NCBI GenBank assembly: GCA_002470165.1
Contig: DKNF01000277.1
Location: forward strand, 1-17,053
DNA from: Betaproteobacteria bacterium UBA7395
GTDB taxonomy: Bacteria; Pseudomonadota; Gammaproteobacteria; Burkholderiales; Rhodocyclaceae
Reading direction: 5' to 3'
DNA length: 17,053 bases
A program made the position numbers and the translations under genes. The number at the start of each line of letters is the position of its first letter. Position 1 is the stretch's first letter. Positions 39-11,741 of the stretch are shown in pieces. The notes beneath the pieces are model-generated. The model had not been told where the DNA came from. It was given only the letters and a program-made list of their open reading frames with translations, and searched no databases.

Positions 39-611
39 TTAGTTCTCCGGTCCAAAACATTTGGCGTAATCCTTGCAAACCCCGCACGAGGGGGCGGGGC
101 AGACGTAAATACCTTCCTGGGCGCAGAACTGGCGGTAGAGGAATTTCTTCCACTTCATGTCGCCGCTGTTGGCCAGGGCCAGGCTGGGGAAGTTGATGCG
201 CATCAATTGCGTCAGTTCGTCGCGGTTGATCAGGCCAAGGTCCTGCCACAGGTGGTCGCGACCGGCGCAGGCGGTGGCGACGATGTTGGCGAACAGGGGT
301 GCCGATTCACGCTGGCGGTCGCGGTGATCGAGCAGCAGTTGCTGCAGGTCCGCCCATTCCGGGATGCTGTCCACATGGCGCGGCAGGCCGGCATGGTCGA
401 AGCCGGAAAAATAGCTGGCCAGCAGGCCGCCAAAGACAGCTTCGCCGAGGCCGAGATCGGCCGGCAGGCAACCGTCGCCAACGGCCTGGCCAGCCAGCAT
501 GCTAGCCAGCAACGCCCGGTTCGGATCGTCGGCCACCGCAGCGGCGGCAGGTGCCGCCAGCAGCGCATCGAACAGCATGCGCCGGTAGTGCTGACGATCC
601 GGGGCGTTCAT
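39..611 (-). CDS. nifQ: NifQ, molybdenum donor for FeMo-cofactor synthesis
   Basis: NifQ carries a Mo-Fe-S cluster and is thought to supply molybdenum to the NifEN/NifH machinery during FeMo-co assembly. The protein is about 190 residues, normal for the family, and ends with the diagnostic cysteine cluster C-x4-C-x2-C-x5-C (CPAPSCGVCKDYAKC) close to the C-terminus. It is the last gene of the nifB operon in this window. I chose the ATG at 611, 2 bases after the stop of the preceding ferredoxin gene; a GTG at 617 overlapping that stop would add two residues and is equally possible. Neither start has a strong ribosome binding site, so translation is probably coupled to the upstream gene. The 38 bases beyond its stop hold nothing I can identify. 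Confidence 0.93.
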   Translation of the reverse strand: MNAPDRQHYRRMLFDALLAAPAAAAVADDPNRALLASMLAGQAVGDGCLPADLGLGEAVFGGLLASYFSGFDHAGLPRHVDSIPEWADLQQLLLDHRDRQRESAPLFANIVATACAGRDHLWQDLGLINRDELTQLMRINFPSLALANSGDMKWKKFLYRQFCAQEGIYVCPAPSCGVCKDYAKCFGPEN

Positions 612-613
612 GG

Positions 614-976
614 TCACTTGCTCGGGTATTCGATGAGCAGATCCTCATCGCGCAGGACCATCTGGCAGGCCAGACGCCACTGGGTCGGACACAGGTCGTC
701 GACCAGCATCTTGTCGACTTCGGCCTGGGTGATCTTGCCCAGTTCCTTGAGCACGCGGATTTCGTGATCGGTCAGCGGCGCGCCCATCGGGCTGCGCTTG
801 GCGTCGACCGACGAGACCTTGACCAGGCAGGTGCCGCAGTCGCCGTTCTCGCAGCCGAAATCGATCGGGATGTGGTGTTCCTTGGCCAGCGTGAGGACGG
901 TCTGGCGATTGCTGCCGGCGACGGCGTAAACCGTCTTGTCCTTGTGCAGCGGGCTGGTAAAAGTGATGAGAGCCAT
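614..976 (-). CDS. 2Fe-2S ferredoxin resembling FeSII (Shethna) nitrogenase-protective protein
   Basis: A 120-residue adrenodoxin/plant-type ferredoxin. Cluster ligands are C42, C47 and C50 (CENGDCGTC) and C104 (RLACQ). Unlike a minimal ferredoxin it has an extra segment at about residues 60-95 with the pattern LTDHEIRVLKELGK before the fourth cysteine, and it ends with DEDLLIE. From memory these features match the Azotobacter vinelandii FeSII protein, which binds MoFe and Fe proteins under oxygen stress and holds nitrogenase in a protected inactive complex; I could not run the alignment. A ribosome site GGAGAAAG precedes the ATG. It lies between another 2Fe-2S ferredoxin gene and nifQ in the nifB operon. 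The 2Fe-2S ferredoxin call is secure; the FeSII role is inference, and an electron carrier to NifB or NifQ is the alternative. Confidence 0.88.
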   Translation of the reverse strand: MALITFTSPLHKDKTVYAVAGSNRQTVLTLAKEHHIPIDFGCENGDCGTCLVKVSSVDAKRSPMGAPLTDHEIRVLKELGKITQAEVDKMLVDDLCPTQWRLACQMVLRDEDLLIEYPSK

Positions 977-1045
977 TTGTTCTTTCTCCGGTAAGCGGGT
1001 TTTCGAGGTTTCTCTGTTGTTGTCGGGATGCAGCGGTTGTGGGTC

Positions 1046-1333
1046 TTATGCGGGTTTGACGACGATTTCGCCGCCAAGAATCTGGGCCTGGCAGGCCAGG
1101 CGGTGGCCGCGCGGGGCCATGTTGTCCTTCAGTACCTGATCTTCGAGCACGCTCGGCGGGGCGAGGTTTTCGCCGCCTTCGATCACCTTGGTCAGGCAGG
1201 TGCAGCATTCGCCTTCGCGGCAGCCGTAGGTGATGCCGGCGCCGACCTTTTCCGAGACTTCGATCAGCCGGGTGCCGGCGGGAACGGTCACGGCGACGCC
1301 GATATCCTGGAAGGTGACTTTTGCTTTGGGCAT
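1046..1333 (-). CDS. 2Fe-2S ferredoxin in the nif operon
   Basis: A 95-residue plant-type ferredoxin with cluster ligands C38, C43, C46 (GCREGECCTC) and C81 (HRLACQ), plus an additional C44 inside the loop. The fold order (beta strands, cysteine loop, C-terminal RLACQ) fits a soluble cytoplasmic low-potential electron carrier. It follows the flavodiiron gene by 16 bases and has a good ribosome site (AGGAGA) before its ATG; 69 bases separate it from the next ferredoxin gene. Its place in a nif operon suggests it feeds electrons to nitrogenase, to cofactor synthesis or to the flavodiiron protein next door. Which partner it serves cannot be read from the sequence. Confidence 0.9.
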   Translation of the reverse strand: MPKAKVTFQDIGVAVTVPAGTRLIEVSEKVGAGITYGCREGECCTCLTKVIEGGENLAPPSVLEDQVLKDNMAPRGHRLACQAQILGGEIVVKPA

Positions 1334-1349
1334 TGTTTTTTCTCCTGTT

Positions 1350-2621
1350 TCAGGCCAGTTCGGCCATGTCGATGACGCGCGTTTCGAGGCGGCCGGTCAG
1401 GTGGCGCGCCAGTTGTTCGCCGAGGTCGCGGCAGGCGTCGAGCTCGCCGGCATCGGGGACGAGCTTGATGCGCAGGCCTTCGACCGGGACCCGCAGCTTG
1501 AGTCCGCGCAGGCGGTCCTCGATCAGCCGCACCGCTTCGCCGCTCCAGCCGTAGGAGCCGAAGGCGGCGCCGAGCTTGCCCTTGACGTTGACCGTGGTCA
1601 GCGACGAGAGCACGTCCCACACCGGCTTGACCGCGTCGGCGTTGATCGTCGGGCTGCCGAAGGCGAGGCCGTCGGCTTCCTCGATCAGGTCGGTGAAGAT
1701 GCCGTCTTCGCCGCCTTCGAGGTCGTACAGCGAGACGCGCACGCCGTCGATGCGTTCGGCGCCGGCGGCCAGGGCTTCGGCCATGCGCCGGGTGTTGCCG
1801 TAGGCCGAGATGTAGAAGACGACCAGCGTCTTCTCGCTGTGCGCCTCGTTGAACAGCCGCGGCGTCGCCAGTTCGCGGTAGCGGTGCAGGTAGTCGCGCG
1901 GCTGCTTGCGCAGGATGGGGCCGTGCGCCGGGCAGAGGGTGCTCAGTTCGAGCGGCTCGATCAGCGCCACCGCGTCGAGCACGTGCTCGCGGAAGGGGCG
2001 CATGATGTGCGCGTAGTAGTACTCGAAGGAAAAGCGGAAATCGCCGACCCGGTCGTTGAACAGCCGGGCGTCGCAGAAATGGCAGCCGAAGATGTCGCCG
2101 GAGAACAGGATGCCGTCCTCGACCAGGTAGGTGCACTGGGTGTCCGGCCAGTGCAGGTAGGGCGTGTGCAGGAAGCGCAGGGTGCGCCCGCCGAGGTCGA
2201 CCTGGTCGTCGGTGGTGACCGGGATGTATTCGGGCGGTTTTTCGCCGGTCGGCTTGAGCAGCGCCTTCAACATCATCTGGGCGCGGCTGGACAGGTACAC
2301 CTTGGCCTGCGGCGCGCGCTTGAGCAGTTCCGGCAGGGCGCCGCTGTGATCCGGTTCGAGGTGGTTGAGGACGATGGTGGTGATTTCGTCGTAACGGGCC
2401 ACCGATTCGAGCCGGGTGAAGAAGGTGTCGGCGAAGCTTTCCTTGACCGTGTCGATGACGGCCACGCCCGTCTCGCCGCGCACGACATAGCTGTTGTAGC
2501 TGGTGCCGTTGGCGGTTTTCAGGATGATGTCGAAGGAACGCAGGTGCGGGTCGAGGGCGCCCACCCAGTGGACGCCCGGTGCAATCTCGACGGCGCCGTC
2601 AGTGAGTCCCGCAACCGGCAT
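1350..2621 (-). CDS. A-type flavodiiron protein (FprA family)
   Basis: Flavodiiron proteins reduce O2 to water, or NO to N2O, in the cytoplasm using electrons from ferredoxin or rubredoxin. This 423-residue protein has the two-domain A-type layout: a metallo-beta-lactamase-like domain (about 1-250) with all six expected diiron ligands, H87, E89, D91 (HLEPDH), H152, D176 and H233, then a flavodoxin domain (about 265-420) with an FMN phosphate loop ISAYGNTRRM. I start it at the ATG at 2621 because GAGGAAG lies just upstream; the longer open frame has no such signal and reads inside nifO. The start overlaps the end of nifO by 23 bases, so translation is likely coupled. In a nif operon it most plausibly removes oxygen near nitrogenase, with the adjacent ferredoxins as likely donors (inference). 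Confidence 0.93.
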   Translation of the reverse strand: MPVAGLTDGAVEIAPGVHWVGALDPHLRSFDIILKTANGTSYNSYVVRGETGVAVIDTVKESFADTFFTRLESVARYDEITTIVLNHLEPDHSGALPELLKRAPQAKVYLSSRAQMMLKALLKPTGEKPPEYIPVTTDDQVDLGGRTLRFLHTPYLHWPDTQCTYLVEDGILFSGDIFGCHFCDARLFNDRVGDFRFSFEYYYAHIMRPFREHVLDAVALIEPLELSTLCPAHGPILRKQPRDYLHRYRELATPRLFNEAHSEKTLVVFYISAYGNTRRMAEALAAGAERIDGVRVSLYDLEGGEDGIFTDLIEEADGLAFGSPTINADAVKPVWDVLSSLTTVNVKGKLGAAFGSYGWSGEAVRLIEDRLRGLKLRVPVEGLRIKLVPDAGELDACRDLGEQLARHLTGRLETRVIDMAELA

Positions 2622-3066
2622 GTTCTTCCTCGTCGTGCGCATGGCTGCCACAACTGCCATGGCCCTCCGGCCCGTGCACGCAGGCTTCGATATTGCCTGC
2701 CGGCAGCTCGACACCGTTGAGTCCGACCCAGGCGTCAACTGCGGCCGGATCGAAACCGACCATGCGTTCGTCGCCGACTTCCATCAGCGGGCGGCGGATC
2801 AGCAGCGGGTTCTCCAGCAGCAACTGCAGCGCGTGCTCGAAGCTGATGTTCTCGGGCACGATCTCGCCGCTCTTGATCGCCGGTGCGGCCGGGTTGAACC
2901 AGCGCGCGACCGGCAGCTTGCCGATGAACTGGAGCAGGCGGTCGGCCGTCCAGGCTTCGCTTTTCAGGCTTTTCGCCTGGACGGTGTGACCGGCGGCGGC
3001 AAGCAGCGTCTTCTGGCGCAGATTGCCTTTACAGCCGGGTTTTTCGTAGAAAGTGATGACCGCCAT
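2599..3066 (-). CDS. nifO: NifO, nitrogenase-associated ArsC/Spx-like protein
   Basis: A 155-residue thioredoxin-fold protein of the arsenate-reductase/Spx type: it opens with ITFYEKPGCKGN, has the RRPLMEVGDERMVGF stretch typical of ArsC-like proteins, and keeps only one cysteine (C12) in the redox loop. In Azotobacter, NifO is encoded between fdxN and nifQ and affects molybdenum partition between nitrogenase and nitrate assimilation. The ATG at 3066 shares one base with the fdxN stop (TGATG), a clear coupling signal; a longer frame starting at 3084 would only add residues inside fdxN. An unusual last 25 residues are rich in His, Cys, Asp and Glu (HGSCGSHAHDEEEHAGCGTH) and look metal-binding. 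Confidence 0.88.
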   Translation of the reverse strand: MAVITFYEKPGCKGNLRQKTLLAAAGHTVQAKSLKSEAWTADRLLQFIGKLPVARWFNPAAPAIKSGEIVPENISFEHALQLLLENPLLIRRPLMEVGDERMVGFDPAAVDAWVGLNGVELPAGNIEACVHGPEGHGSCGSHAHDEEEHAGCGTH

Positions 3067-3356
3067 CAGGCTGCCTCCCGCCACAAGCCGAATTCCTTCA
3101 GCTTTTCGATTGGAATGCCGGTCAGTGATCCCGGCGGATTGAGGAATTCCCCGAGTTCATTGACGATCGCCATTTCGATCGGGCAGATCGCCGCGCATTG
3201 CGGGTCGGCGTGGTCGCCCAGGCATTCGGTGCATTTGTCCGCGCTGATCAGGAAATGCGGCGCTTCGTCGCGGTCCGGCTGGTAGATGGCGTCGTTCGGA
3301 CAGACATCGACGCAAGCCCAGCAATTGACGCAGGATTCGGTTATCTGCAGTGCCAT
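3066..3356 (-). CDS. fdxN: FdxN-type 2[4Fe-4S] ferredoxin
   Basis: A 96-residue bacterial ferredoxin with two 4Fe-4S motifs. The first is C9-x2-C12-x2-C15-x3-C19-P; the second is the expanded C42-x2-C45-x8-C54-x3-C58-P form (CTECLGDHADPQC), characteristic of FdxN and Allochromatium-type ferredoxins. FdxN is known as an electron donor in nitrogen fixation, notably to the radical-SAM protein NifB. The gene starts immediately after the nifB stop codon with no gap (TAA then ATG) and shares one base with nifO, so the three are surely co-translated. Nothing is missing or truncated. Confidence 0.95.
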   Translation of the reverse strand: MALQITESCVNCWACVDVCPNDAIYQPDRDEAPHFLISADKCTECLGDHADPQCAAICPIEMAIVNELGEFLNPPGSLTGIPIEKLKEFGLWREAA

Positions 3357-4859
3357 TTACGCCACCTTCAGAGAATCGGCTTGCGGCAGCAATTTGCCGG
3401 TCGCCGCAATTTCCTTGTACACCGCCATCACCGCTTCCTCGATCGGCTCCATCGCGTGTTCGCCGTTCGGCGCAATGCCGGCGGCTTCCAGCTTGGCCCA
3501 GGGCTCGTAACCGACCTTGGAACAGAGCACGACCTCGCAGCCTTCGAGGATGCGGATGTTGCGATCAAGCAGCGATTCGCTGGCGCCCGCCTCGACCACG
3601 TCGCCGTCGCCGCAGGCATCCATGCCGCCGCAGTAGAGCTCGGTCTTGCGGTGGCTGATGAAACGCACGCCTGCCGGCGAAGCCTCGTAGATCAGGAACT
3701 CGCGGGCGTGGCCGAAGTGCTCGGCAACCAGGCCGTTCTTGCCGGCCACCGCCATCAGCACCGGGCGCGAACCTTCCGGAATGTCGGTCGGCTTTGGCTT
3801 GGCGACGCCGCGTTCGGCTTCCAGTTTCTCGATGATCGCGTCATGCACTGCCTTGCGGCGGACCATGGCGGCTTCGTAATCGACCTCCATGACGTCGATC
3901 TTGTCCATGGTGAACTCGTCGCCGCGATCCTCGCCCAGCAGGCCGACCGCGTCGGCGCGGCACTGGCGGCAGTGGCGCATCATCGCCATGTCGCCGGCAC
4001 AGGCGTCCTGCAGCTCCTGCAGCATTTCCTGGGTCGGTTCCGGCTGGCCCATGATGCCGTAGTAGGTGCCGTGCTCGGCCTCGGCGATCAGCGGCATGAC
4101 GTTGTGCAGGAAGGCACCCTTGGCCTTGACCACCTTGGAGACTTCCTTGAGGTGCTGGTCATTGATGCCGGGAATCAGCACCGAATTGACCTTCACCAGG
4201 ATGCCGCGGTCAGTCAGCATCTGCAGACCCTTCTGCTGCTGTTCGATCAGGATGCGCGCGCCCTCGATGCCGAAGATGCGCTTGTTCTGCCAATAGATCC
4301 ACGGGTAGATCTTGGCGCCAACTTCAGGATCGACACAGTTGATGGTGATCGTCACGTGGTCGATGTTGTGTTTGGCGATTTCGTCGACATGCTCGGGCAG
4401 GGACAGCCCGTTGGTCGACACGCACAGCTTGATGTCCGGGGCCTTCTCGGAGAGCTGGCGGAAAGTGTCGAAAGTGCGGCCCGGGTTGGCCAAGGGGTCT
4501 CCGGGTCCGGCGATGCCGAGCACCGTCATCTGCGGAATCTCGGCGGCCACCGCGAGCACCTTCTTGATCGCCTGGTCCGGCGTCAGCAGTTCGGAGACGA
4601 CGCCCGGGCGCGATTCGTTCGAGCAGTCGTACTTGCGGTTGCAGTAGTTGCACTGGATGTTGCAGGCCGGCGCGACCGCGACGTGCATGCGGGCGAAATA
4701 GTGGTGCGCCTGTTCCGAATAGCAGGGATGATCCTGCACCTTGGCGCGGATGTGATCCGGCAGATGGGCCAGCCCGTCCGGCGCCGTGCCGCAACCGCTG
4801 GAAGAACAGCCGCCGCCTTCGGCGGCCGGTGCGTTGTTGCTGATGACTGGAAGTTCCAC
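3357..4859 (-). CDS. nifB: NifB, radical-SAM FeMo-cofactor core synthase
   Basis: NifB fuses two 4Fe-4S units and inserts carbide and sulfur to make NifB-co, the 8Fe-9S-C core of FeMo-cofactor. The protein has 500 residues, the usual length of two-domain proteobacterial NifB. The radical-SAM cluster loop is C66-x3-C70-x2-C73 (ACNIQCNYCNRKYDC), preceded by the family's Cys-rich N-terminus (C18, C23, C46). A NifX/NafY-like cofactor-binding domain occupies about residues 370-490 (MAVAGKNGLVAEHFGHAREF). The start is GTG at 4859, 8 bases after GGAG. It is the first gene of a seven-gene operon and is preceded by a sigma-54/NifA control region, so expression should follow nitrogen limitation and low oxygen. 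Confidence 0.98.
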   Translation of the reverse strand: MELPVISNNAPAAEGGGCSSSGCGTAPDGLAHLPDHIRAKVQDHPCYSEQAHHYFARMHVAVAPACNIQCNYCNRKYDCSNESRPGVVSELLTPDQAIKKVLAVAAEIPQMTVLGIAGPGDPLANPGRTFDTFRQLSEKAPDIKLCVSTNGLSLPEHVDEIAKHNIDHVTITINCVDPEVGAKIYPWIYWQNKRIFGIEGARILIEQQQKGLQMLTDRGILVKVNSVLIPGINDQHLKEVSKVVKAKGAFLHNVMPLIAEAEHGTYYGIMGQPEPTQEMLQELQDACAGDMAMMRHCRQCRADAVGLLGEDRGDEFTMDKIDVMEVDYEAAMVRRKAVHDAIIEKLEAERGVAKPKPTDIPEGSRPVLMAVAGKNGLVAEHFGHAREFLIYEASPAGVRFISHRKTELYCGGMDACGDGDVVEAGASESLLDRNIRILEGCEVVLCSKVGYEPWAKLEAAGIAPNGEHAMEPIEEAVMAVYKEIAATGKLLPQADSLKVA

Positions 4860-5611: not shown

Positions 5612-5806
5612 CTATTCCTTTTCCGGGTTCGTCAGCTCGTCCCGGTACCCGCGGCAGGCATCGCGCAACACCTGCAGGTGCTGCTGGTAGTTGCGGCAGC
5701 CCTTGCACAGGGCGAGGTGCATGCCGAGTTCGAGGCGTTCGCCGAGGCCGAGTTCGCGGTCTTCGGCTTCCGACATGCGGCGGGTGGCGTCCTTGCAGTT
5801 CAACAT
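5612..5806 (-). CDS. Small zinc-finger (ZAS-type) anti-sigma factor
   Basis: A 64-residue protein with the anti-sigma zinc-binding motif H30-x3-C34-x2-C37 (HLALCKGC), plus a conserved-looking C4 near the N-terminus that can serve as fourth zinc ligand. There is no membrane segment, so it should act in the cytoplasm, binding the neighbouring ECF sigma factor and releasing it on a thiol or metal signal (family knowledge plus inference). The start is the ATG at 5806: GGAG lies upstream, and it overlaps the 3' end of the sigma gene by 7 bases, which fits co-translation in fixed ratio. The longer open frame lacks such support. Confidence 0.85.
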   Translation of the reverse strand: MLNCKDATRRMSEAEDRELGLGERLELGMHLALCKGCRNYQQHLQVLRDACRGYRDELTNPEKE

Positions 5807-6438
5807 GGGCGTTCTCCGGCGAGGAACCAGCTTTTCTCCAGGCAACCGCGCAAGGCGCTGCGGGCGCGATGCAGGATGACGTGGCAGTTGCTGGTGCTGA
5901 TACCGGCGGCAGAACAGACTTCGCCGGTATCGAGTTCGAGGAACTCGCGCATCATGAAGACGCGCGCGGTGTTTTTGGGCAGCTGCGTCAGGCAGGCGTC
6001 GAAGACGGCCCAGAAGTGCTTGTCGCGCAGCGAGCTTTCCGGATCGCCCCAGGCGGCCGGGCGGTGCGCCGGCTGCCAGTGGGCGTTTTCCTTGAACAGG
6101 GCGTCGAAGGCCTGATCCAGGCTGTCCTCGTCGCCACCGAAAGCCGACACCGGCGTTGTTCGCGACTGCTGGCGGATCAGGTCGACGATCTTGTGGCGCA
6201 GGATGCCGAACACCCAGGTCTTCAGCGCCGAGCGGCCGGCGAAATCCTTGCCGCTGGTCAGCGCGGCGGTCAGGGCGTCCTGTACGGCGTCTTCGGCGAG
6301 CGCGGCGTCGCGCAACTGGAGCTGGGCGAAAGCCAGCATGTCGCGGCGGACCTGTTCGACAAAGGCGTTGTCGATGCTGGCTGGGGGAGCGATGGCGGCC
6401 TCCGTGGCACGGGCGTCAAAGCCGCCATGGTAGCTCAA
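5800..6438 (-). CDS. ECF-type RNA polymerase sigma factor
   Basis: A 212-residue sigma-70 family group 4 factor. Region 2 (about 25-95) shows ALAEDAVQDALTAAL and LKTWVFGILRHKIVDLIRQ; region 4 (about 150-205) shows LPKNTARVFMMREFLELDTGEVC then a helix-turn-helix ending in NCHVILHRARSALRGC. The linker with repeated W-x-P motifs (NAHWQPAHRPAAW) and terminal KSWF recall the TIGR02943-type group, from memory. The start is TTG at 6438, overlapping the thioredoxin stop (TTGA); no better start gives region 2 intact. It is co-transcribed with a periplasmic thioredoxin and the anti-sigma gene, and probably autoregulates through the promoter at 6849-6878. Likely targets are the hvf operon and the ccdA-like gene, which share that promoter element. 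Confidence 0.93.
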   Translation of the reverse strand: MSYHGGFDARATEAAIAPPASIDNAFVEQVRRDMLAFAQLQLRDAALAEDAVQDALTAALTSGKDFAGRSALKTWVFGILRHKIVDLIRQQSRTTPVSAFGGDEDSLDQAFDALFKENAHWQPAHRPAAWGDPESSLRDKHFWAVFDACLTQLPKNTARVFMMREFLELDTGEVCSAAGISTSNCHVILHRARSALRGCLEKSWFLAGERPC

Positions 6439-6815
6439 CGGGCGGCTTCCAGCGCAGCACGCAGCTTGGCCGGATCGGTGTCGCCAGCCAGGCGCGCGAC
6501 TTCCTTGTCACCCTTGAAGACGATCAACGTTGATTGCATGCGCACGCCCAACTGGCGGCGTAGTTCGCGGGCGTTGTCGTAATCGACGACGAGCAGGCGG
6601 CCGGGTACGGCGGCATCGCCGCGCCAGCCGTCGAAAACCTTCTGCTGCGCCCGGCAGGTCGGGCACCAGTCGGCGTGGAAATGCAGAGCGACAGCCTTGC
6701 CGGCAGCCTGTTGCTGGGCAAAGTCGGCCGCCGACCACGGGGCGATGTCGAGCGCCTGGGCAAAACCGGCAATGGTGGTGAAGGCGAGGGCCGCGAGCAG
6801 GCGGATGGTTTTCAT
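6435..6815 (-). CDS. Periplasmic thioredoxin-fold protein (WCPTC)
   Basis: A 126-residue protein with a Sec signal peptide (cleavage expected after AQA, residues 19-21) and a thioredoxin domain with active site W50-C51-P-T-C54. It should act in the periplasm as a thiol reductase. The residue at the normally invariant cis-proline position appears to be S95 (MQSTLIVF), which is unusual for a thioredoxin. The start is the ATG at 6815, placed by GGAG 6 bases upstream and by the signal peptide; the longer frame is non-coding. Its stop overlaps the TTG of the sigma gene. The CcdA/DsbD-like membrane protein at 10956-11690, under the same type of promoter, is the obvious candidate to keep it reduced (inference). 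Confidence 0.9.
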   Translation of the reverse strand: MKTIRLLAALAFTTIAGFAQALDIAPWSAADFAQQQAAGKAVALHFHADWCPTCRAQQKVFDGWRGDAAVPGRLLVVDYDNARELRRQLGVRMQSTLIVFKGDKEVARLAGDTDPAKLRAALEAAR

Positions 6816-6848: not shown

Positions 6849-6878
6849 TTGGTCGGAGTTGGTGGGGGAATTCTTACA
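6849..6878 (-). promoter_or_regulatory. ECF sigma promoter of thioredoxin-sigma-antisigma operon
   Basis: The minus strand reads TGTAAGAA, 15 bases, then CGACCAA, ending 33 bases before the thioredoxin ATG. The same pair with the same 15-base spacing occurs upstream of hvfA and of the ccdA-like gene. The split into -35 (TGTAAGAA) and -10 (CGACCAA) elements is typical of ECF promoters. Assignment to the adjacent sigma factor is inference. Confidence 0.85.
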
Positions 6879-7045
6879 CTGCGATGTCTTGGTCGGGCTG
6901 AATGAACGCATTGCAATGCACCTGACCGGCAAATATCGTCGTGTTGGTCATGACTTGTCAGGCGGCATTCGGCCACAAGCGGCCTTTCGAAGATGCTGCC
7001 AGAAAGCTGTCGTAGCGCCTCTCAGACCCGTTCGGCATATTGCTT

Positions 7046-7054
7046 TGTTATACT
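7046..7054 (+). promoter_or_regulatory. Possible extended -10 promoter driving the cassettes
   Basis: TGTTATACT matches the extended -10 pattern TGnTATAnT and lies about 115 bases upstream of cassette 1, in the direction of the cassette genes. No good -35 is present. A related TTGTTATAC recurs at 7124-7132. This could be the outward promoter for the array, but the evidence is the motif alone. Confidence 0.35.
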
Positions 7055-7126
7055 GACCGCAAGAACGCTAAGCCACTGACAACAATGCGATTTGAGCAGC
7101 CAATCCCACGTCAACAATATCAATTG

Positions 7127-7152
7127 TTATACGGACCCATGCGTCCGTGTAA
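7127..7152. repeat. Inverted repeat at left cassette boundary
   Basis: TTATACGGAC (7127-7136) and GTCCGTGTAA (7143-7152) form a 10-base stem with one G-T type mismatch around a 6-base loop, ending 6 bases before the crossover G at 7158. A second small dyad, AACAAT/ATTGTT, precedes it at 7113-7128. Integron recombinases use folded sites, so this may be the recipient structure. There is no T tract that would suggest a terminator. Confidence 0.55.
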
Positions 7153-7158
7153 ACACTG

Positions 7159-7699
7159 TTAGAAGGCGCATGGAAATCGTCCTCTCAATTGCCGGCGCTC
7201 TAATTGCATGGCGGTTCCTGCTGCCCTTTGCCGTTGCAATTGCCGTTGGCTTCCCACTTGGCCATCTCTTTGGGCCAGTGCTGGGGTTTTCTGTCGTGCT
7301 CGGCGGCATTGGCTTCGGGCTTATTTGGCAAGGCCGCTGGCTTTCCGGCATTCCACTCTTCGCTTCGGTTCCTTCCCCGCCTATCTCAAGGCCTGTCGCA
7401 TTCCTCGGCCTAGCATTCATTGGGGCTCTCTGGGGCGGGTTCGCTGCCGTGACTCTTGGCTCGGTGCTGGCTGGCGGTGTCGTTCTAGTAGCTGGTGTAG
7501 CTCTTGTTGGCGGTTGGTTCTCTCTCGTCCTCAAGCGCCATGGGCAACTCAACAACCTTGTCTTCGCTACTTTTTCTCTTCTATGTGGCCTTGGCGGTCT
7601 GTATGCACTCAGCGTATATCACGCCAAAGCGCCTTCTAACCCGCCGCTCCAGAGGGACGCTACGCCGGCAAGCCGGCTCCGCGCCCCTGAGCTAGCACG
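7159..7699 (+). mobile_element. Integron gene cassette 1
   Basis: The cassette starts TTAGAAGGC (after G7158) and ends ...CACG at 7699, giving 541 bp. Its inverse core GCCTTCTAAC (7631-7640) is the exact reverse complement of GTTAGAAGGC spanning its left edge (7158-7167). This is expected only if the element once circularised by joining its own ends, so it identifies a true IntI-type cassette. It carries one gene on the plus strand, opposite to the surrounding genes. Confidence 0.9.
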
Positions 7700-7703
7700 T
7701 TAG
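7170..7703 (+). CDS. Cassette-encoded small integral membrane protein
   Basis: A 177-residue hydrophobic protein I do not recognise. It has about four or five membrane segments: roughly residues 3-32 and 34-52, a pair at about 72-118, and one at about 128-148, with Gly- and Ala-rich helices. The ATG at 7170 is 11 bases into the cassette, the usual compact arrangement; a longer frame would begin outside the cassette. The last about 20 residues (NPPLQRDATPASRLRAPELAR) are translated from the attC site, and the stop TAG comes from the first bases of the next cassette (G|TTAG). Such attC-derived tails are common in cassette proteins. Function unknown. Confidence 0.8.
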   Translation: MEIVLSIAGALIAWRFLLPFAVAIAVGFPLGHLFGPVLGFSVVLGGIGFGLIWQGRWLSGIPLFASVPSPPISRPVAFLGLAFIGALWGGFAAVTLGSVLAGGVVLVAGVALVGGWFSLVLKRHGQLNNLVFATFSLLCGLGGLYALSVYHAKAPSNPPLQRDATPASRLRAPELAR

Positions 7704-7705
7704 AC
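7634..7705 (+). other. attC recombination site of cassette 1
   Basis: A 72-base site. The inverse core TTCTAAC (7634-7640) and core GTTAGAC (7699-7705, consensus GTTRRRY) flank an imperfect palindrome: CAGAGGGACGC pairs with GCGCCCCTGAGC with an unpaired base, and the centre is GCCGGCAAGCCGGC. The crossover is between G7699 and T7700. Confidence 0.9.
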
Positions 7706-8315
7706 CTTCTCCATGAACTACCTCGATACGGCATTTGCGCACCTCGAACTGTCAATCAAGTTGATGCACGCTGCTGAGCAAGGTCGGATTAGGCGCGAGG
7801 ATATTGATCTCCCACTGACTATTGCTCAAGGCAAGTCATTTCTAGTGCTCAATGATCAAGCCATCCAGACAGATGATGATTTCATCAACTCATTCCAAAA
7901 CAACGTTTCCATTTCCTTCGGAGCGGCAGCGATCACATTAAATCGATGCAGAGAAGAATGGAAAATTAATCTTCCAGACCCAATCGCCACAGAGCGTGAT
8001 CAGTGGATTGCTCTGGTCTATCAAATTCGCAATGCCTTTGCGCACGACATCGCCGAACCAAAATGGGAGATCAAGCCAAGGTATGCGCGCAGTTACAAAG
8101 TTGGCTGGGTTGAAGCTGACCTTTCCGCACTGAACGGACAGCCATTCGACTACTACCAGTTGGGCGGGCCAGAAGCACTATTTATTCTCAAGGATTATGG
8201 GAAACAACATGTCTTCCATGCCTCTGCTGCGGTTTAACACTACAGTCGAGCGGGACAGTCACAAGCTGCGCTTGTGGTTCCCTTCCCTTCGCTCCGGCTG
8301 TCCCTCACTTCCACG
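7700..8315 (+). mobile_element. Integron gene cassette 2
   Basis: This 616-bp cassette begins TTAGACC at the crossover point of the first attC and ends ...CCACG at 8315 in a second attC. Base composition is visibly less GC-rich than the flanking chromosomal genes, consistent with foreign origin. The circularised ends would pair GTTAGAC with GTTTAAC with one mismatch, somewhat worn compared with cassette 1. Confidence 0.83.
7713..8237 (+). CDS. Cassette-encoded hypothetical protein with HEPN-like RNAFAH motif
   Basis: A 174-residue, mostly soluble and helical-looking protein that I cannot place in a named family. The central segment has YQIRNAFAHDIAEPKW: the R-N-x3-H arrangement matches the Rx4-6H motif of HEPN-domain proteins, many of which are RNases in toxin-antitoxin or abortive-infection systems. 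This is one short motif, so an RNase role is only a hypothesis. The ATG is 13 bases into the cassette and the stop TAA lies inside the inverse core GTTTAAC of its attC. No antitoxin-like partner is present in the cassette. Base composition is lower in GC than in the flanks. Confidence 0.8.
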   Translation: MNYLDTAFAHLELSIKLMHAAEQGRIRREDIDLPLTIAQGKSFLVLNDQAIQTDDDFINSFQNNVSISFGAAAITLNRCREEWKINLPDPIATERDQWIALVYQIRNAFAHDIAEPKWEIKPRYARSYKVGWVEADLSALNGQPFDYYQLGGPEALFILKDYGKQHVFHASAAV

Positions 8316-8321
8316 TTCCTG
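8232..8321 (+). other. attC site of cassette 2 with degenerate core
   Basis: The inverse core GTTTAAC (8232-8238, matches RYYYAAC) is followed by a palindrome: GGGACAG (8252-8258) pairs with CTGTCCC (8298-8304), and inner arms CACAAGC and GCTTGTG surround a short loop. The right core reads GTTCCTG (8315-8321), which keeps only the GTT of GTTRRRY, so the flanking half was probably never an attC. Confidence 0.78.
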
Positions 8322-8342
8322 AACGTCCGCTTTTCGAAGGCC

Positions 8343-8376
8343 TGACCGGCAGCAAAGGGTCGATTCGAGCCGGTCA
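8343..8376. repeat. Inverted repeat downstream of hvfC
   Basis: TGACCGGC (8343-8350) and GCCGGTCA (8369-8376) are perfect 8-base arms around an 18-base loop, 20 bases after the hvfC stop. It could terminate hvfC transcripts, but there is no T tract on the minus strand after it, and it may instead be part of a dispersed intergenic repeat. Confidence 0.4.
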
Positions 8377-8395
8377 AAGTACTGTGATCCCGCGC

Positions 8396-9124
8396 TTACT
8401 CCGTGCCGAGCACTATCCCCTGGCGACGCAGGTCTGCGAGGAGTTCAAGGCCGAACTCGACCAGCCGCTCCGGTTCGGCGTGCTGTAGTTCGGCGGCGAT
8501 CTGCCGGCAGGCGGCTTCGCCGCTTTGTGGCGTTTCCGCGAGCAGCGCGAGCAGGCGGGCGGTGACCGGGTTGGTTGCGCTGAAGCGGACGATATCGTCG
8601 GCGTCGCGATAGACCAGCAGGTGCGTTGCCTGCGCCTTGCGCGGCCGCCAGTCGGGGCCGATGCGGTGGACCGGCCAGGCGTAGGCGAGGTTGAACAGCA
8701 CCGGGTTGAGGATGATCGTGCCGTGGCGCAGGTCGCCGGCCGGGTCGTGCGGCGGGATAGGCGCGTCGGCGATGTCGGCGGCCAGTTCGGCCCATTCGTA
8801 ATGCGCCAGTTCGGGTAGCCAGCGCGGCAGGCGCAGGCCTGGCGTTTGCGCCAGGAACTGTACGAACTCGCTCGGGATTTCGCGGAACCACGGCGTGCGT
8901 AGCGGCCAGTCACGGCGGAAGCGGCGCCCCAGGCGCTGCCAGCGCGCCTCGCCGAGGATGGCGCGGCAGACTGGGAAGGCGCTGTCGATGAAGCCCTGCA
9001 GGTTGTTGCCGACCAGCTCGCGGTACACGCCCATGCCGCGTGCCGGCACGCCGGCCGGTCGGGGGGCGCGTTGCGGGTCGCGCAGGTGATTGGCGAAGGC
9101 TTGCTGGAAGTTCTGGAATTCCAT
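8396..9124 (-). CDS. hvfC: HvfC, DUF2063 partner protein of the MNIO enzyme
   Basis: A 242-residue protein whose N-terminal half is a clear DUF2063 domain: FQQAFANHLRDP, the signature GVPARGMGVYRELVGNN, then FPVCRAILGE, FREIPSEFVQF and LPELAHYEWAEL (about residues 6-112). The C-terminal half resembles the winged-helix-like tail of the family. DUF2063 proteins bind the RiPP precursor leader and present it to the partner DUF692 enzyme (established for HvfC/BufC-type systems). The ATG at 9124 follows the hvfB stop by 2 bases. It is the last gene of the hvfA operon. Confidence 0.92.
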   Translation of the reverse strand: MEFQNFQQAFANHLRDPQRAPRPAGVPARGMGVYRELVGNNLQGFIDSAFPVCRAILGEARWQRLGRRFRRDWPLRTPWFREIPSEFVQFLAQTPGLRLPRWLPELAHYEWAELAADIADAPIPPHDPAGDLRHGTIILNPVLFNLAYAWPVHRIGPDWRPRKAQATHLLVYRDADDIVRFSATNPVTARLLALLAETPQSGEAACRQIAAELQHAEPERLVEFGLELLADLRRQGIVLGTE

Positions 9125-9126
9125 GT

Positions 9127-9969
9127 TCAGGCCGCCTTGCGCTGCTTCGCTGCGGCCTGCAGCCGGGCGATGGTTTCGACCTCTGCGGTCAAGGCCGCCA
9201 GATCGGGAAAATTGAAATCGCGTTCGAGGCAGGTCGGTACCTCGCCGCCGATGCGCGCATAGGCGTCGGCGAGCAGTGCCCACACCGGGTCGATCACCGG
9301 TGCGCCGTGGGTGTCGATGATCAGCCCGTCCGGCTCGACGTAGTGGCCGGCGACATGGACGTAGCAGGTGCGCGCCAGCGGCAGCGCGGCGAGGAATTCG
9401 TGCGCGTCGAAGCCGAAGTTGCGGCTATTGACGTAAATGTTATTGACGTCGAGGTGAAGCAGGCAGTCGGCGGCCTCGGCCACGGCGCTGATGAATTCGG
9501 CGGCGTTCATCTCGGCGCCGGGCGGTTCGACGTAGGTCGAGGCGTTCTCGATGCCGATCTGTCGGCCGAGGATGTCCTGGGCGCGCCGGATGCGTTCGGC
9601 GGTCCAGCGCACCGCCGCCTCGGTCTGCGGGATCGGCAGCAGGTCGTAGAGCTGGCGGTCGTCGGCGCACCAGGAGAGATGCTCGGTGTACAGCGTCATC
9701 CCGTGTTCGCGCATGAAGTCGCGGATGCGGTGGAGCAGCGCCTCGTCGAGCGGCCCGCTGCCGCCGAGCGACAGCGACAGGCCGTGGCAGACGAAGGGGT
9801 AGCGCTCGGTGAATTCGCGTAGTTGCCGCGCCGAGCGCCCGCCCATGCCCGCCCAGTTCTCGGGTGCCAGTTCGAAGAAGTCGATGGCCGTCGGCACGCC
9901 GGCCTGCAGCGGGGCGATCAGTTCGCGCCGGAAACCGAGGCCGGCGCCGTGCGGCGGGCGGGCGTGCAT
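9127..9969 (-). CDS. hvfB: HvfB, MNIO (DUF692) iron-dependent RiPP-modifying oxidase
   Basis: A 280-residue TIM-barrel protein of the multinuclear non-haem iron oxidase family (formerly DUF692). Expected metal ligands are visible: H62 (HGLSLSLG), E96/H97 (TEHLSW), E141/N142 (GIENAS), H172/D174 (HLDVNN), H205/H209 (HVAGH), D219/H221 (DTHGAP) and E249 (LERD). These enzymes oxidise cysteines in precursor peptides to heterocycles such as oxazolone-thioamide or thio-oxazole that bind copper. The ATG at 9969 shares one base with the stop of the peroxiredoxin-like gene (TGATG). Its substrate should be the KCG-repeat precursor encoded by hvfA in the same operon; acting on cysteine there is inference from the family. 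Confidence 0.95.
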   Translation of the reverse strand: MHARPPHGAGLGFRRELIAPLQAGVPTAIDFFELAPENWAGMGGRSARQLREFTERYPFVCHGLSLSLGGSGPLDEALLHRIRDFMREHGMTLYTEHLSWCADDRQLYDLLPIPQTEAAVRWTAERIRRAQDILGRQIGIENASTYVEPPGAEMNAAEFISAVAEAADCLLHLDVNNIYVNSRNFGFDAHEFLAALPLARTCYVHVAGHYVEPDGLIIDTHGAPVIDPVWALLADAYARIGGEVPTCLERDFNFPDLAALTAEVETIARLQAAAKQRKAA

Positions 9970-10502
9970 CAGGCTTCTCCGCGCGCCGGGTAGTCCTTGG
10001 CGACGACAAAGTCGATGGCGCCGAGCATGTCCTTGAAGTGCGGCCGGGCGAAGGGCATGGTCTGGACGTTGGCCCAGTACAGCGTCAGGTCGGGGCGGAT
10101 CAGGAAAACGCCGGGCTCGGAAAAACGCGCCGGTTCCTCGACCCCGGTCGAGGTCAGGCCGCGGCCGGTGGAAATGTACAGGCCCCAGGCGCGGGCGTCG
10201 GCCTCGCTCAGACCGTAGCCGAGGTCGAGCTGGTCGAGCGACCACTCGTCGGCGGCGCGGCGGGCGCGTTCTTCGGTATCCGACGAGAGTACCTTGATGA
10301 CCACGCCGCGGGCGGCGAATTCGTCATGCAGGCGGTTCAGTTCGCTCAGGTAGGTGCGGCACAGCGGGCAGTGGTAACCGCGGTAGAAGACCAGCAGCGT
10401 GAAGGCAGGCGCTGCCCCGGCGGCGAGCGTCAGGCGGCTGCCGGAGAGTTGCGGCACATTGAGCGCCGGGACCGGCTGGCGGGGAATCAGGGATTGCGGC
10501 AT
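9969..10502 (-). CDS. Peroxiredoxin-like (AhpC/TSA fold) protein with CPLC
   Basis: A 177-residue AhpC/TSA-family protein. The redox site is C45-P-L-C48 (FYRGYHCPLCRTYLSEL), a CxxC as in bacterioferritin-comigratory or thioredoxin-like relatives and not the single-Cys peroxiredoxin loop; PGVFLIRPDLTLYWAN follows in the usual place. No signal peptide is visible, so it should be cytoplasmic. The ATG at 10502 is preferred because AGGA lies 8 bases upstream; one at 10529 has no such site. It sits between the precursor hvfA and the modifying enzyme hvfB, with one base shared with hvfB, so a part in precursor thiol handling or protection of the iron enzyme is likely but unproven. Confidence 0.88.
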   Translation of the reverse strand: MPQSLIPRQPVPALNVPQLSGSRLTLAAGAAPAFTLLVFYRGYHCPLCRTYLSELNRLHDEFAARGVVIKVLSSDTEERARRAADEWSLDQLDLGYGLSEADARAWGLYISTGRGLTSTGVEEPARFSEPGVFLIRPDLTLYWANVQTMPFARPHFKDMLGAIDFVVAKDYPARGEA

Positions 10503-10519
10503 GAGGATATTCCTTGAAA

Positions 10520-10542
10520 GGGCCGGCATCGACCGTCGGCCC
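10520..10542 (-). terminator. Possible attenuator hairpin between hvfA and downstream genes
   Basis: On the minus strand GGGCCG, 11 bases, CGGCCC is followed by TTTC, in the 54-base gap after the hvfA stop. A leaky stem here would make more precursor mRNA than enzyme mRNA, as is common in RiPP operons. The U tract is short, so this is tentative. Confidence 0.4.
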
Positions 10543-10556
10543 GTTGCTTCAGCGTC

Positions 10557-10871
10557 TTACTTCTTGGCGCCGCACTTGGCCTCGCCGCATTTGCCATCTG
10601 CCTTTTTGTCGGCCGGTTTCTTGTCAGCGCCGCACTTGGCATCCGTTTTCTTGTCGGCGCCACACTTGGCGTCCTTCGCCTTCTTCTCGGCACCGCACTT
10701 GGCTTCGCCGCATTTACCTTCCTTGCCCTTGGTGTCGGCCTGCGCCAGCTGGTAGCCGGCCGACAGCTGCTTGGCGGCGAAGGGGTTGTCGGCCGCGTGG
10801 GCAACCGGGGTCAGGGCGACGGCGGCGAAGGCGGAACCGATGGCCAGGGAGGTGATTGTCTGCTTTTTCAT
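10557..10871 (-). CDS. hvfA: HvfA/bufferin-type RiPP metallophore precursor
   Basis: A 104-residue precursor. Residues 1-26 are a Sec signal peptide ending VAHA, residues 27-46 a short segment (NPFAAKQLSAGYQLAQAD) typical of the family, and residues 50-104 a Lys/Asp/Ala-rich low-complexity core with six KCG units at C54, C59, C70, C80, C95 and C100 (one EGKCG, two EAKCG, two DAKCG, one DGKCG). EGKCG-type motifs are the sites modified by MNIO enzymes in HvfA and bufferins, which then bind copper in the periplasm. The ATG at 10871 has GGAG 6 bases upstream. It is the first gene of the operon hvfA-prx-hvfB-hvfC, under an ECF-type promoter at 10919-10948. The exact modifications cannot be read from sequence. 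Confidence 0.93.
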   Translation of the reverse strand: MKKQTITSLAIGSAFAAVALTPVAHAADNPFAAKQLSAGYQLAQADTKGKEGKCGEAKCGAEKKAKDAKCGADKKTDAKCGADKKPADKKADGKCGEAKCGAKK

Positions 10872-10918
10872 GATGGTCTCCATTGAGGTGGGGTGATGGC
10901 AGAAAGCCTGCCTGTTGC

Positions 10919-10948
10919 TTGGTCGGCGTCATGGCCGACTTTCTTACA
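10919..10948 (-). promoter_or_regulatory. ECF sigma promoter of the hvfA operon
   Basis: The minus strand reads TGTAAGAA, 15 bases, CGACCAA, identical in both boxes and spacing to the elements at 6849-6878 and 11712-11741. It begins 8 bases after the end of the ccdA-like gene and ends 47 bases before the hvfA ATG, so hvfA can be transcribed independently. Confidence 0.87.
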
Positions 10949-10955
10949 GAAGATT

Positions 10956-11690
10956 TCAGAACAGCGTGGTCAGTCGGACCCAGGAATCCGGCAAACGTTC
11001 GACGATGATGGCTTCCAGCCATTTGTCGGCGCCGCTGAGGATGGCGACGCCGGTGAGCAGCAGCAGGACGCCGAACACGGTCTTGATGCGACCGATGTGC
11101 TGCATGACCCAGCCACGGGCGCGACCGAAGCCAGCGCGCGAGGCATAGGCGACCCCGACCAGCGGCACCGCCGCACCGATCCCGAACAGACCGAGCACGA
11201 CGCCACCGCGCAGGGCGCCGCCTTCGGCTGCGACTAGGCTCAGCGCGGCACCGAGCAGCGGGCCGGAACAGGGACTCCAGACCAGCCCGAGCACGCCACC
11301 CAGCAAAAAGGCGCCGCCCAGCGAGCCGCCGTTCAGCCGCGCCGACGCAGCGTTGGCCTGGCTGGCGATGGGCAGCATCCATTCGGTGAAGCGGGCGTTC
11401 AGCGCCGGCACCAGCATGACCAGGCCGAACGTCAGCAGCAGCCAGCCGCCGAAAGTCCGCACATGGTCGCCGTCGATGCCCAGCGCCGGCCCGAGTGCGC
11501 CGAGCAGCATGCCGATCAAGGCGAACGACAGCGCCATGCCGACGCCCATCGCCACTGGCGCGAGCTTGTTCTGCTGCACGGCACCGCCGACCACCAGCGG
11601 CAATACGGGAAAGACGCAGGGCGACAGCGTGGTCAGGCTGCCGGCCAGCAAGGCGAGGCCGAGAACGGCGGGGGAAAGGGTTTCGAGCAT
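10956..11690 (-). CDS. CcdA/DsbD-like thiol-disulfide transmembrane protein
   Basis: A 244-residue inner-membrane protein with about six membrane segments and the two conserved Pro-Cys sites of the CcdA/DsbD-beta family: C25 in LSPCVFPVLPLV and C141 in WSPCSGPLL, in pseudo-symmetric helices. Members carry electrons from cytoplasmic thioredoxin to periplasmic thiol proteins. The ATG at 11690 has an excellent AAGGAG site. It stands alone under its own ECF-type promoter, just upstream of the hvfA operon, and a periplasmic WCPTC thioredoxin is encoded under the same promoter type at 6435-6815, so the two probably form a reducing pathway (inference). A role in cytochrome c maturation is the alternative. 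Confidence 0.9.
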   Translation of the reverse strand: MLETLSPAVLGLALLAGSLTTLSPCVFPVLPLVVGGAVQQNKLAPVAMGVGMALSFALIGMLLGALGPALGIDGDHVRTFGGWLLLTFGLVMLVPALNARFTEWMLPIASQANAASARLNGGSLGGAFLLGGVLGLVWSPCSGPLLGAALSLVAAEGGALRGGVVLGLFGIGAAVPLVGVAYASRAGFGRARGWVMQHIGRIKTVFGVLLLLTGVAILSGADKWLEAIIVERLPDSWVRLTTLF

Positions 11691-11711
11691 GACGTCTCCT
11701 TGAGTTGGAGA

Positions 11712-11741
11712 TTGGTCGCGGCGGGGGGCGGATTTCTTACA
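11712..11741 (-). promoter_or_regulatory. ECF sigma promoter of the ccdA-like gene
   Basis: The minus strand reads TGTAAGAA, 15 bases, CGACCAA, ending 21 bases before the ATG. This is the third copy of the shared element. The 84 bases between it and the LysE-family gene show nothing else. Confidence 0.87.

Follow-up and report, generated by a model that had tools for sequence, protein, structure and literature searches.

Two described regulators lie closest to the system considered here. In Neisseria, the sigmaE-MseR pair (NMB2140-NMB2145, msrA/msrB) consists, in the available parts of the reports, of an ECF sigma factor with a short soluble ZAS anti-sigma factor encoded directly downstream (PMC2893595, PMC3240639). 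Its regulon is small, comprising the autoregulated sigma operon and a Trx/Msr protein, and its promoter has been described as a -35 element GTMAGBWTT, a gap of 12-13 nt and a -10 element CGTCTAAH (PMC2893595). In Haemophilus influenzae, RpoE2-HrsE (ECF group 13) also pairs a sigma factor with a ZAS anti-sigma factor (67 aa in Haemophilus), and msrAB and a DoxX/COG3767/COG3220/DUF2063 cluster are sigma-dependent; msrAB and the hvf-type cluster are the published targets of the group (PMC7907618). The available part of that report gives the ZAS motif as C/H-X23-26-H-X3-C-X2-C and, unlike the locus below, names neither a trx-sigma operon nor a ccdA-like target and finds rpoE2 hardly autoregulated (PMC7907618). 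The Caulobacter SigF-NrsF system resembles the present one as an ECF regulon under metal stress, with DUF692, DUF2063 and DUF2282 appearing in the paper, and differs in its membrane anti-sigma factor NrsF and its GTAACC-N16-CGAA promoters (PMC3511200).

The whole stretch of DNA analyzed (the window) comprises 17,053 nucleotides from Betaproteobacteria bacterium UBA7395 and carries the following features.

5612 to 5806, minus strand: soluble zinc-type (ZAS) anti-sigma factor, 64 aa (zf-HC2, 8.7e-7; NF052368 antisigmaE, 75.8 bits against a cutoff of 50)
5800 to 6438, minus strand: ECF sigma factor, regions 2 and 4 (Pfam Sigma70_r2 and r4_2; NCBIfam TIGR02943, 255 bits against a cutoff of 162)
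6435 to 6815, minus strand: trx, thioredoxin-fold, first gene of trx-sigma-anti-sigma (Pfam Thioredoxin, 1.4e-9)
6849 to 6878, minus strand: predicted promoter 1, upstream of trx (-35 TGTAAG(AA), 17 bases from TGTAAG to CGAC, -10 CGACCAA)
8396 to 9124, minus strand: hvfC, DUF2063 and NGO1945_C partner protein (PF09836, PF22106)
9127 to 9969, minus strand: hvfB, MNIO-type RiPP maturase (PF05114, 1.6e-96; NF003818, 384 bits against a cutoff of 360)
9969 to 10502, minus strand: redoxin of the AhpC/TSA family, within the hvf operon (Pfam search)
10557 to 10871, minus strand: hvfA, KCGE/KCG-repeat metallophore precursor (RiPP) (NF050137, 46.7 bits against a cutoff of 19.5)
10919 to 10948, minus strand: predicted promoter 2, between the ccdA-like gene and hvfA
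10956 to 11690, minus strand: ccdA-like gene, DsbD/CcdA-type membrane reductant transporter (DsbD_TM, 3.1e-21)
11712 to 11741, minus strand: predicted promoter 3, upstream of the ccdA-like ATG

The sigma factor scores 265.9 bits against PRK12532, just under the cutoff of 276, and its start codon is uncertain, the furthest upstream being a TTG at 6438. The start of the adjacent anti-sigma gene overlaps the sigma stop. Its product, above the NF052368 cutoff, has the ligands of a short soluble ZAS protein (C4-X25-H30-X3-C34-X2-C37). By eye, the trx product shows a signal-like stretch at its N terminus as well as a WCPTC motif. The hvf genes supply the parts of an HvfABC-type MNIO metallophore (oxazolin/fontiphorin) system, namely a KCG/EGKCG-repeat precursor, an MNIO enzyme and a DUF2063 partner; HvfA stays below the cutoff of the equivalog NF050188 (47.2 against 95 bits), and a Pfam search matched no domain in it. 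On the basis of family profiles, the sigma factor is most likely related to sigmaE of Neisseria and RpoE2 of Haemophilus. Because the system appears to match this known group, any implication in the first-pass annotation of a new kind of system is set aside. Neither of the marks of Caulobacter SigF-NrsF, a GTAACC -35 element and a membrane NrsF anti-sigma factor, is found in the window system.

The paired element TGTAAGAA-N15-CGACCAA has three exact matches in the window, all on the minus strand, and a scan allowing up to 3 mismatches gave no further match. All three lie in intergenic DNA, 21-47 bp upstream of ATGs, with distances from the -10 box of 33 bp for trx, 47 bp for hvfA and 21 bp for the ccdA-like gene. 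Positions and uniqueness in the window are thus as first described. Pairwise, the sites agree at 5-8 of 15 spacer positions and 8-20 of 60 positions in the 60-bp flanks; since spacers and flanks diverge to this extent, a recent duplication was rejected as their origin, in keeping with the earlier proposal of conserved function. That three intergenic stretches are alike by chance is a reading for which no supporting point was found and which is exceedingly improbable. In 200 shuffles of the window, the mean number of matches was 0.13 and the largest 2, so that none gave three matches even at 3 mismatches. The genome assembly (2,465,274 bases in 282 contigs, 83.59% complete, so that further sites may be missing from it) contains three exact sites, none at 1-2 mismatches, which covers the one-mismatch scan proposed earlier, and 18 at 3 mismatches. 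The last are regarded as background, because the reversed pattern gives 44 matches at up to 3 mismatches. Numerous sites beside unrelated genes, named beforehand as evidence that would speak against the proposal, were looked for and not found in this genome. The shuffles and the genome scan led to rejection of a chance repeat, and the site also precedes related target genes in relatives.

Comparison with relatives refines the element. The core that they share is TGTAAG followed, after a gap of 16 or 17 bases, by CG(A/T)C(C/T)AA; the pair described in the first-pass annotation is real, and neither its exact spacer length nor the AA that follows TGTAAG belongs to this core. With the core TGTAAG-N16/17-CGWCNAA, a fourth site of the form N16-CGACTAA appears elsewhere in the genome (contig C150:2940-2968, genome G000), preceding a MsrA-Trx-MsrB fusion gene, and the earlier claim of a self-contained regulon is consequently not supported. 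Both published targets of the group, msrAB and the hvf-type cluster, therefore recur here, behind the sites at C150:2940-2968 and 10919-10948. The core shares with Neisseria the -35 GTMAG, an equivalent spacing (16-17 bases from GTMAG to CG) and a related -10, CGTCTAA there against CG(A/T)C(C/T)AA here. The window sites differ in having CGACCAA, with A rather than T as third base, and 17 bases between TGTAAG and CGAC. The layout also differs: the window sigma sits with trx, the hvf genes stand apart in a unit of their own, to which a redoxin is added, the ccdA-like gene has its own predicted promoter, and the domains of the Msr protein run MsrA-Trx-MsrB. In both cases the regulon is small, and autoregulation of the sigma operon is predicted here.

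In the neighbourhood of 60 related sigma loci, TGTAAG and CGAC are paired 26 times with a spacer of 16 (two of these within sigma genes) and 20 times with a spacer of 17, compared to 0-2 times for every other spacer from 10 to 25. With this sharp spacing optimum, their position before genes and their match to the Neisseria sigmaE consensus, the three sites look like ECF promoters, and we infer promoter activity at all of the sites. In principle, a short paired element that recurs ahead of several operons might also be a transcription-factor operator. This is a very unlikely reading: inspection by eye shows no inverted symmetry between the two boxes, the spacer is strictly 16 or 17 bases, and the pair fits a promoter consensus whose +1 agrees, in the available part of the report, with the mapped gonococcal msrA/msrB start (PMC2893595).

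If the sites are ECF promoters, the sigma factor encoded alongside them at 5800-6438 is the one most likely to read them, as first suggested. In a family sample of 150 genomes, with sigma presence defined as a match at E<=1e-40, the site was found in 59 of 70 sigma-bearing and 12 of 80 sigma-less genomes (117 vs 14 sites; Fisher 2e-18), or 100 vs 14 sites once 17 sites inside sigma genes are subtracted. The reversed pattern gave 40 matches with and 58 without the sigma. For these counts the shorter core was used, the original exact pair at 1 mismatch being too strict (29 of 150 genomes). With the core pattern, no site was found in 11 of the 70 sigma-bearing genomes. The 12 sigma-less genomes with a site, some of which may hold more distant sigmas, leave some room for another ECF sigma as main reader, for example one of the SigF/NrsF type of bufferin clusters; Buf1 clusters are described as containing sigma and NrsF genes in the accessible part of the source (PMC12452194). 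Such a reader is improbable, given that the sites track the presence of this sigma and that promoter 1 is the promoter of its own operon. The -35 of the Caulobacter SigF consensus differs from that of the sites in the part of the paper at hand (PMC3511200), and at the 60 loci no preferred spacing of 16 or 17 bases emerges for GTAAC with CG[AT]C; on these two grounds a SigF/NrsF promoter type was rejected.

In relatives, this promoter also precedes trx, ccdA-like and hvfA genes that are arranged differently, which upholds the grouping of the three units into one regulon; in the same-genus relative L223, it precedes a single gene in which a CcdA-type domain is fused to a thioredoxin domain. Among cultured relatives, Azonexus hydrophilus (L156) carries the sigma gene. 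The recurrent targets in the family are periplasmic repair and metallophore genes. Downstream of 112 non-embedded sites, the clusters are DUF2282/BufA1 (15), ArsS (10), Trx/CcdA (9), MsrP (8), HvfA (6), a TVP38-reductase fusion (6), BufA2 (5), MsrA/MsrB (5) and anti-sigma (4), and DUF3047, DUF1223 and DUF3179 proteins also recur. Start codons lie 10-130 bp downstream of 102 of the 112 sites, weak evidence in that they were chosen by a scoring rule that had no control.

In many relatives, the same promoter is also seen within the sigma gene, in the region 4.2 codons just upstream of the anti-sigma gene; the window's own sigma gene is without it. Ten of 15 N16-CGTC matches lie within sigma coding sequence, and their reading as ordinary upstream promoters was rejected for this reason. 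The codons involved, C-(K/Q)-x-x-x-x-x-x-(S/T)-N, are written TGT (A/C)AG ... xCG WCN AA with a 16-base spacer, in many sigma genes of this group from Betaproteobacteria and a few Gammaproteobacteria. Strong codon bias marks the Cys and -10 codons, the Cys bias being seen again in 58 other sigma genes, and this codon-choice test ruled against a pure protein-coding coincidence. A column scan carries less weight than the codon counts, since z reaches 8.3 in a control group without the motif. It is probable that the helix-turn-helix codons of region 4.2 also spell a promoter read by the same sigma, and that the active sigma thereby boosts its inhibitor, together with any metallophore genes that follow, but not itself. 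The region 4.2 domain reads the -35 element; the DNA encoding this domain would, if so, itself hold a -35 element. A literature search, with most subscription papers outside its reach, gave a single precedent for promoters inside sigma genes, sigH-rshA of Corynebacterium glutamicum. There, a sigma-dependent promoter within the coding region of a distant, actinobacterial sigma drives the anti-sigma gene only, and the available part of the report makes no mention of region 4.2 codon placement or synonymous constraint (PMC3489674).

Taken as a whole, a model in which a ZAS anti-sigma/ECF sigma switch drives the window promoters and msrA-trx-msrB is highly probable. At rest, the anti-sigma factor (5612-5806) would sequester the sigma (5800-6438), which would be released on thiol oxidation, hypochlorite-like stress or metal stress. 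The inducing signal is uncertain, because one study saw no response of meningococcal sigmaE expression to oxidative stimuli, as far as that report was available (PMC2893595); we infer the signal, like the electron path, from the genes present. The freed sigma would take RNA polymerase to TGTAAG-N16/17-CG(A/T)C(C/T)AA promoters. Promoter 1 would then yield trx-sigma-anti-sigma, providing positive and negative autoregulation, and the other outputs would be the ccdA-like gene and hvfA-redoxin-hvfB-hvfC in the window and the msrA-trx-msrB fusion elsewhere. The CcdA-like protein and exported thioredoxin may pass electrons across the membrane to methionine sulfoxide reductase and oxidised thiols, perhaps also to the HvfA cysteines, and HvfBC would convert HvfA into a thiooxazole/oxazolone metal-binding peptide.

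Very likely, the regulon works as a small alarm that responds both to metal stress and to damaged sulphur-containing proteins. The promoter consensus appears specific enough for regulons to be read from sequence, and the location of ArsS, the TVP38-reductase fusion, DUF3047, DUF1223 and DUF3179 behind it suggests for each a role in the same stress that can be put to the test. The promoter inside the sigma gene would be a clean case of protein code and regulatory code sharing one DNA stretch. Across a bacterial family, one sigma would link biosynthesis of a predicted metal-binding peptide, repair of methionine sulfoxide and the supply of thiol reductant.

The first-pass annotation had placed three identical ECF promoters on the minus strand and named the ECF sigma factor encoded at 5800-6438 as their likely reader. 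A window scan recovered the three copies of TGTAAGAA-N15-CGACCAA at those positions, with no further copy in the whole window at one to three mismatches and a mean of 0.13 matches over 200 shuffled windows. In the organism's own genome (2,465,274 bases, 282 contigs, 83.59% complete), the same three exact sites were found and none at one or two mismatches; at three mismatches there were 18 matches, compared with 44 for the reversed pattern. All three sites are intergenic, and their spacers and flanks show little mutual likeness.

Candidate promoters and genes of the window
6849-6878, minus strand: promoter 1, 33 bp to the trx ATG
10919-10948, minus strand: promoter 2, between the ccdA-like gene and hvfA, 47 bp to the hvfA ATG
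11712-11741, minus strand: promoter 3, 21 bp to the ccdA-like ATG
6435-6815, minus strand: trx
5800-6438, minus strand: ECF sigma factor
5612-5806, minus strand: zinc-finger anti-sigma, 64 aa, above the antisigmaE model cutoff (C4-X25-H30-X3-C34-X2-C37)
10956-11690, minus strand: ccdA-like gene
10871 down to 8396, minus strand: hvfA-redoxin-hvfB-hvfC

The hvfB product matches the HvfB maturase model, hvfC combines DUF2063 with NGO1945_C, and hvfA matches the KCGExKCG repeat model and falls below the stricter HvfA equivalog. The redoxin within this operon (9969-10502) is of the AhpC/TSA type, and its relatives also lie near the sigma gene in two compared stretches (L092, L117). Upstream of the trx promoter, two plus-strand ORFs without a Pfam match (7208-8237) interrupt the minus-strand cluster and are possibly an inserted segment. 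Elsewhere in the window (39-4859) lies a nitrogen-fixation block of NifQ, a NifB-like protein with radical SAM and Nitro_FeMo-Co domains, a metallo-beta-lactamase/flavodoxin protein and an ArsC-family protein.

With a slightly wider -10 (CGWCNAA), four sites are observed in the own genome and one with the reversed control; relaxing the -35 to TGTMAG adds none there. The fourth site (G000:C150:2940-2968, in stretch L222) lies ahead of a gene whose 442-aa product carries MsrA, thioredoxin-like and MsrB domains and, judged by eye, a lipoprotein signal. The neisserial Msr protein has the domain order Trx-MsrA-MsrB, whereas this fusion is ordered MsrA-Trx-MsrB.

A search with the sigma protein covered 150 family genomes, including that of the window, and gave matches at 74 places in 70 genomes (E<=1e-40). 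In 60 stretches, which cover 61 of the 73 sigma places outside the window's genome, the spacer between TGTAAG and CGAC peaks at 16 bases (26 matches, two inside sigma genes) and 17 bases (20 matches), with 0-2 matches at every other spacer from 10 to 25. For TGTAAG and CGTC, the peak is at 16 bases (15 matches, 10 of them within sigma genes). The pattern TGTAAG-N16/17-CGWCYAA occurs at least once in 59 of the 70 genomes with the sigma versus 12 of the 80 without it (Fisher 2e-18). Site totals are 117 and 14, respectively (reversed control, 40 and 58), or 100 and 14 when 17 sites inside sigma genes are excluded.

To describe the genes behind the promoter, 129 distinct sites were read from 131 places (G113:C3:172670 was left out and one pair was identical): 17 inside sigma genes and 112 outside. 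Downstream genes were grouped by sequence and mostly named from a single representative; further scans covered the Msr members, the second same-genus MsrP, one anti-sigma and the CcdA-Trx fusion. For 102 of the 112 sites, an uncontrolled start-picking rule places a start codon 10-130 bp downstream.

Genes downstream of the 112 sites outside sigma genes
DUF2282/BufA1: 15
ArsS radical SAM: 10
thioredoxin/CcdA: 9, two in the window
MsrP: 8
HvfA: 6
TVP38-reductase fusion: 6
BufA2: 5
methionine sulfoxide reductase: 5 (own-genome fusion, three MsrB, one MsrA)
anti-sigma: 4
DUF3047: 3
DUF1223: 3
NPCAA-repeat peptide, DUF3179, sigma gene, small EF-hand-like protein (by eye): 2 each

The remaining genes are singletons, and some of their sites probably reflect chance. 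ArsS-type radical SAM proteins and the TVP38-pyridine nucleotide reductase fusion recur after the promoter (L086, L091, L111, L116 and others). Small NPCAA/NPCAAK-repeat peptides with signal-like starts follow the same promoter in L111 (4176-4379) and L232 (1460-1738); the L232 peptide, the one tested, has no NCBIfam match, and these peptides are possibly another metal-binding precursor.

Among same-genus relatives, the pieces are arranged differently and the promoter is retained. In L141, trx-ccdA and anti-sigma-hvfABC are two units, each with the promoter. In L223, the promoter precedes one gene (1432-2559) in which a CcdA-type domain is fused to a thioredoxin domain, the counterpart of the window's separate ccdA-like and trx genes. 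In L224 and L225, it precedes MsrP. This independent reshuffling, together with the fusion, provides good evidence that trx and the ccdA-like gene act jointly, in one regulon with hvf.

In relatives, the pattern is also found inside the sigma gene itself, where region 4.2 encodes C-K-E-x-x-I-x-x-(S/T)-N. It lies 76-91 bp upstream of the anti-sigma ATG in 11 of the 12 cases examined first (in L128, the script chose another start). Examples, with strong codon bias, include L131, L136, L142, L143, L161, L297, L300 and more. As the conserved peptide alone could create the pattern, codon choice was tested. In 58 sigma genes encoding C-K, TGT AAG outnumbers TGC AAG 39 to 2 when an in-frame -10 is present; when it is absent, TGT and TGC number 8 and 9. 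After thinning to <80% identity (119 genes, 50 of the 58 C-K genes kept), genes with the -10 use TGT:TGC at 32:2 at the motif versus 18:82 over the rest of these genes (Fisher 9e-16). In 44 thinned C-K genes, Ala, Pro, Ser or Thr stands at the -10, with a codon ending in CG in 40 of them, versus 34% gene-wide; without C-K, the count is 14 of 43 versus 33%. Both boxes occur together in 32 of the 119 genes (-35 only, 7; -10 only, 8; neither, 72; Fisher 6e-15), and their association within C-K genes alone has a Fisher value of 2e-4. In a column scan of codon conservation, the motif AAG (z 8.1) and GAA (z 12.6) top 102 columns, with TGT at 3.6 and other columns up to 6.7; only GAA stands above background, because values of 8.2 and 8.3 are seen in some columns of the C-K-free group, although no promoter is present.

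Since the first 12 genes had been chosen by DNA motif and another search used an EICKE peptide, the test was repeated with sigma genes retrieved through protein similarity alone (70 of 90 places read; 58 genes once sequences near the earlier set or one another had been dropped). Both boxes are present in 34 (TGT[AC]AG allowed), which is not a prevalence because the query itself carries the element; -35 only, -10 only and neither account for 4, 3 and 17. TGT:TGC is 35:2 at the motif versus 25:89 elsewhere (Fisher 9e-16). A zinc-type anti-sigma ORF lies directly downstream, by the script's rule, in 33 of these 34 genes. Of the 119 thinned genes of the first set, 38 carry the element; the anti-sigma follows immediately in 38 of 38, and also in 75 of the 81 that lack it. 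Loci read backwards gave one site in total, as against 38 within sigma genes and 54 outside them. A quick FastTree tree that left out the motif columns puts the number of changes in the trait at 12 or more, six of these forced by well-supported branches, so a single frozen accident does not explain the candidate element; weak branches blur the change count. When the sigma and anti-sigma genes diverge (L130, L133, L141), it is the anti-sigma gene that the promoter precedes; L134 and L138, with the same layout, have no site with the searched pattern. The window's own sigma lacks the in-gene element, and promoter 1 would serve both sigma and anti-sigma.

Neisseria sigmaE has a -35 of GTMAGBWTT, 12-13 nt, a -10 of CGTCTAAH, a ZAS anti-sigma, and NMB2140-2145 and msrA/msrB as targets (PMC2893595, PMC3240639); Haemophilus RpoE2-HrsE controls msrAB and a DoxX/DUF2063 cluster (PMC7907618). 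MNIO peptides and hvf clusters are covered in PMC12452194 and PMC12668002. The window fits this Neisseria sigmaE/Haemophilus RpoE2 group, with its sigma a probable member. The in-gene promoter logic is not new, because in C. glutamicum sigH-rshA a sigma-dependent promoter lying within the sigma gene drives the anti-sigma gene (PMC3489674); in the literature listings searched, no report was noticed of an in-gene anti-sigma promoter in this sigma group or of codon constraint. Added here are the family consensus, the trx/ccdA-like limb, a longer list of targets and the candidate promoter inside the sigma gene.

The sequence itself shows the sites, the gene families and their co-occurrence; the mechanism outlined next is a probable one. 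Thiol or metal stress, the presumed signal, would free the sigma from its anti-sigma. Acting at the putative promoters, the freed sigma would raise reductant supply through trx and the ccdA-like gene, by a predicted flow of electrons, methionine repair through MsrA-Trx-MsrB, and metal-binding peptide, with its presumed metal, through hvfABC. The anti-sigma would rise in parallel and end the response.
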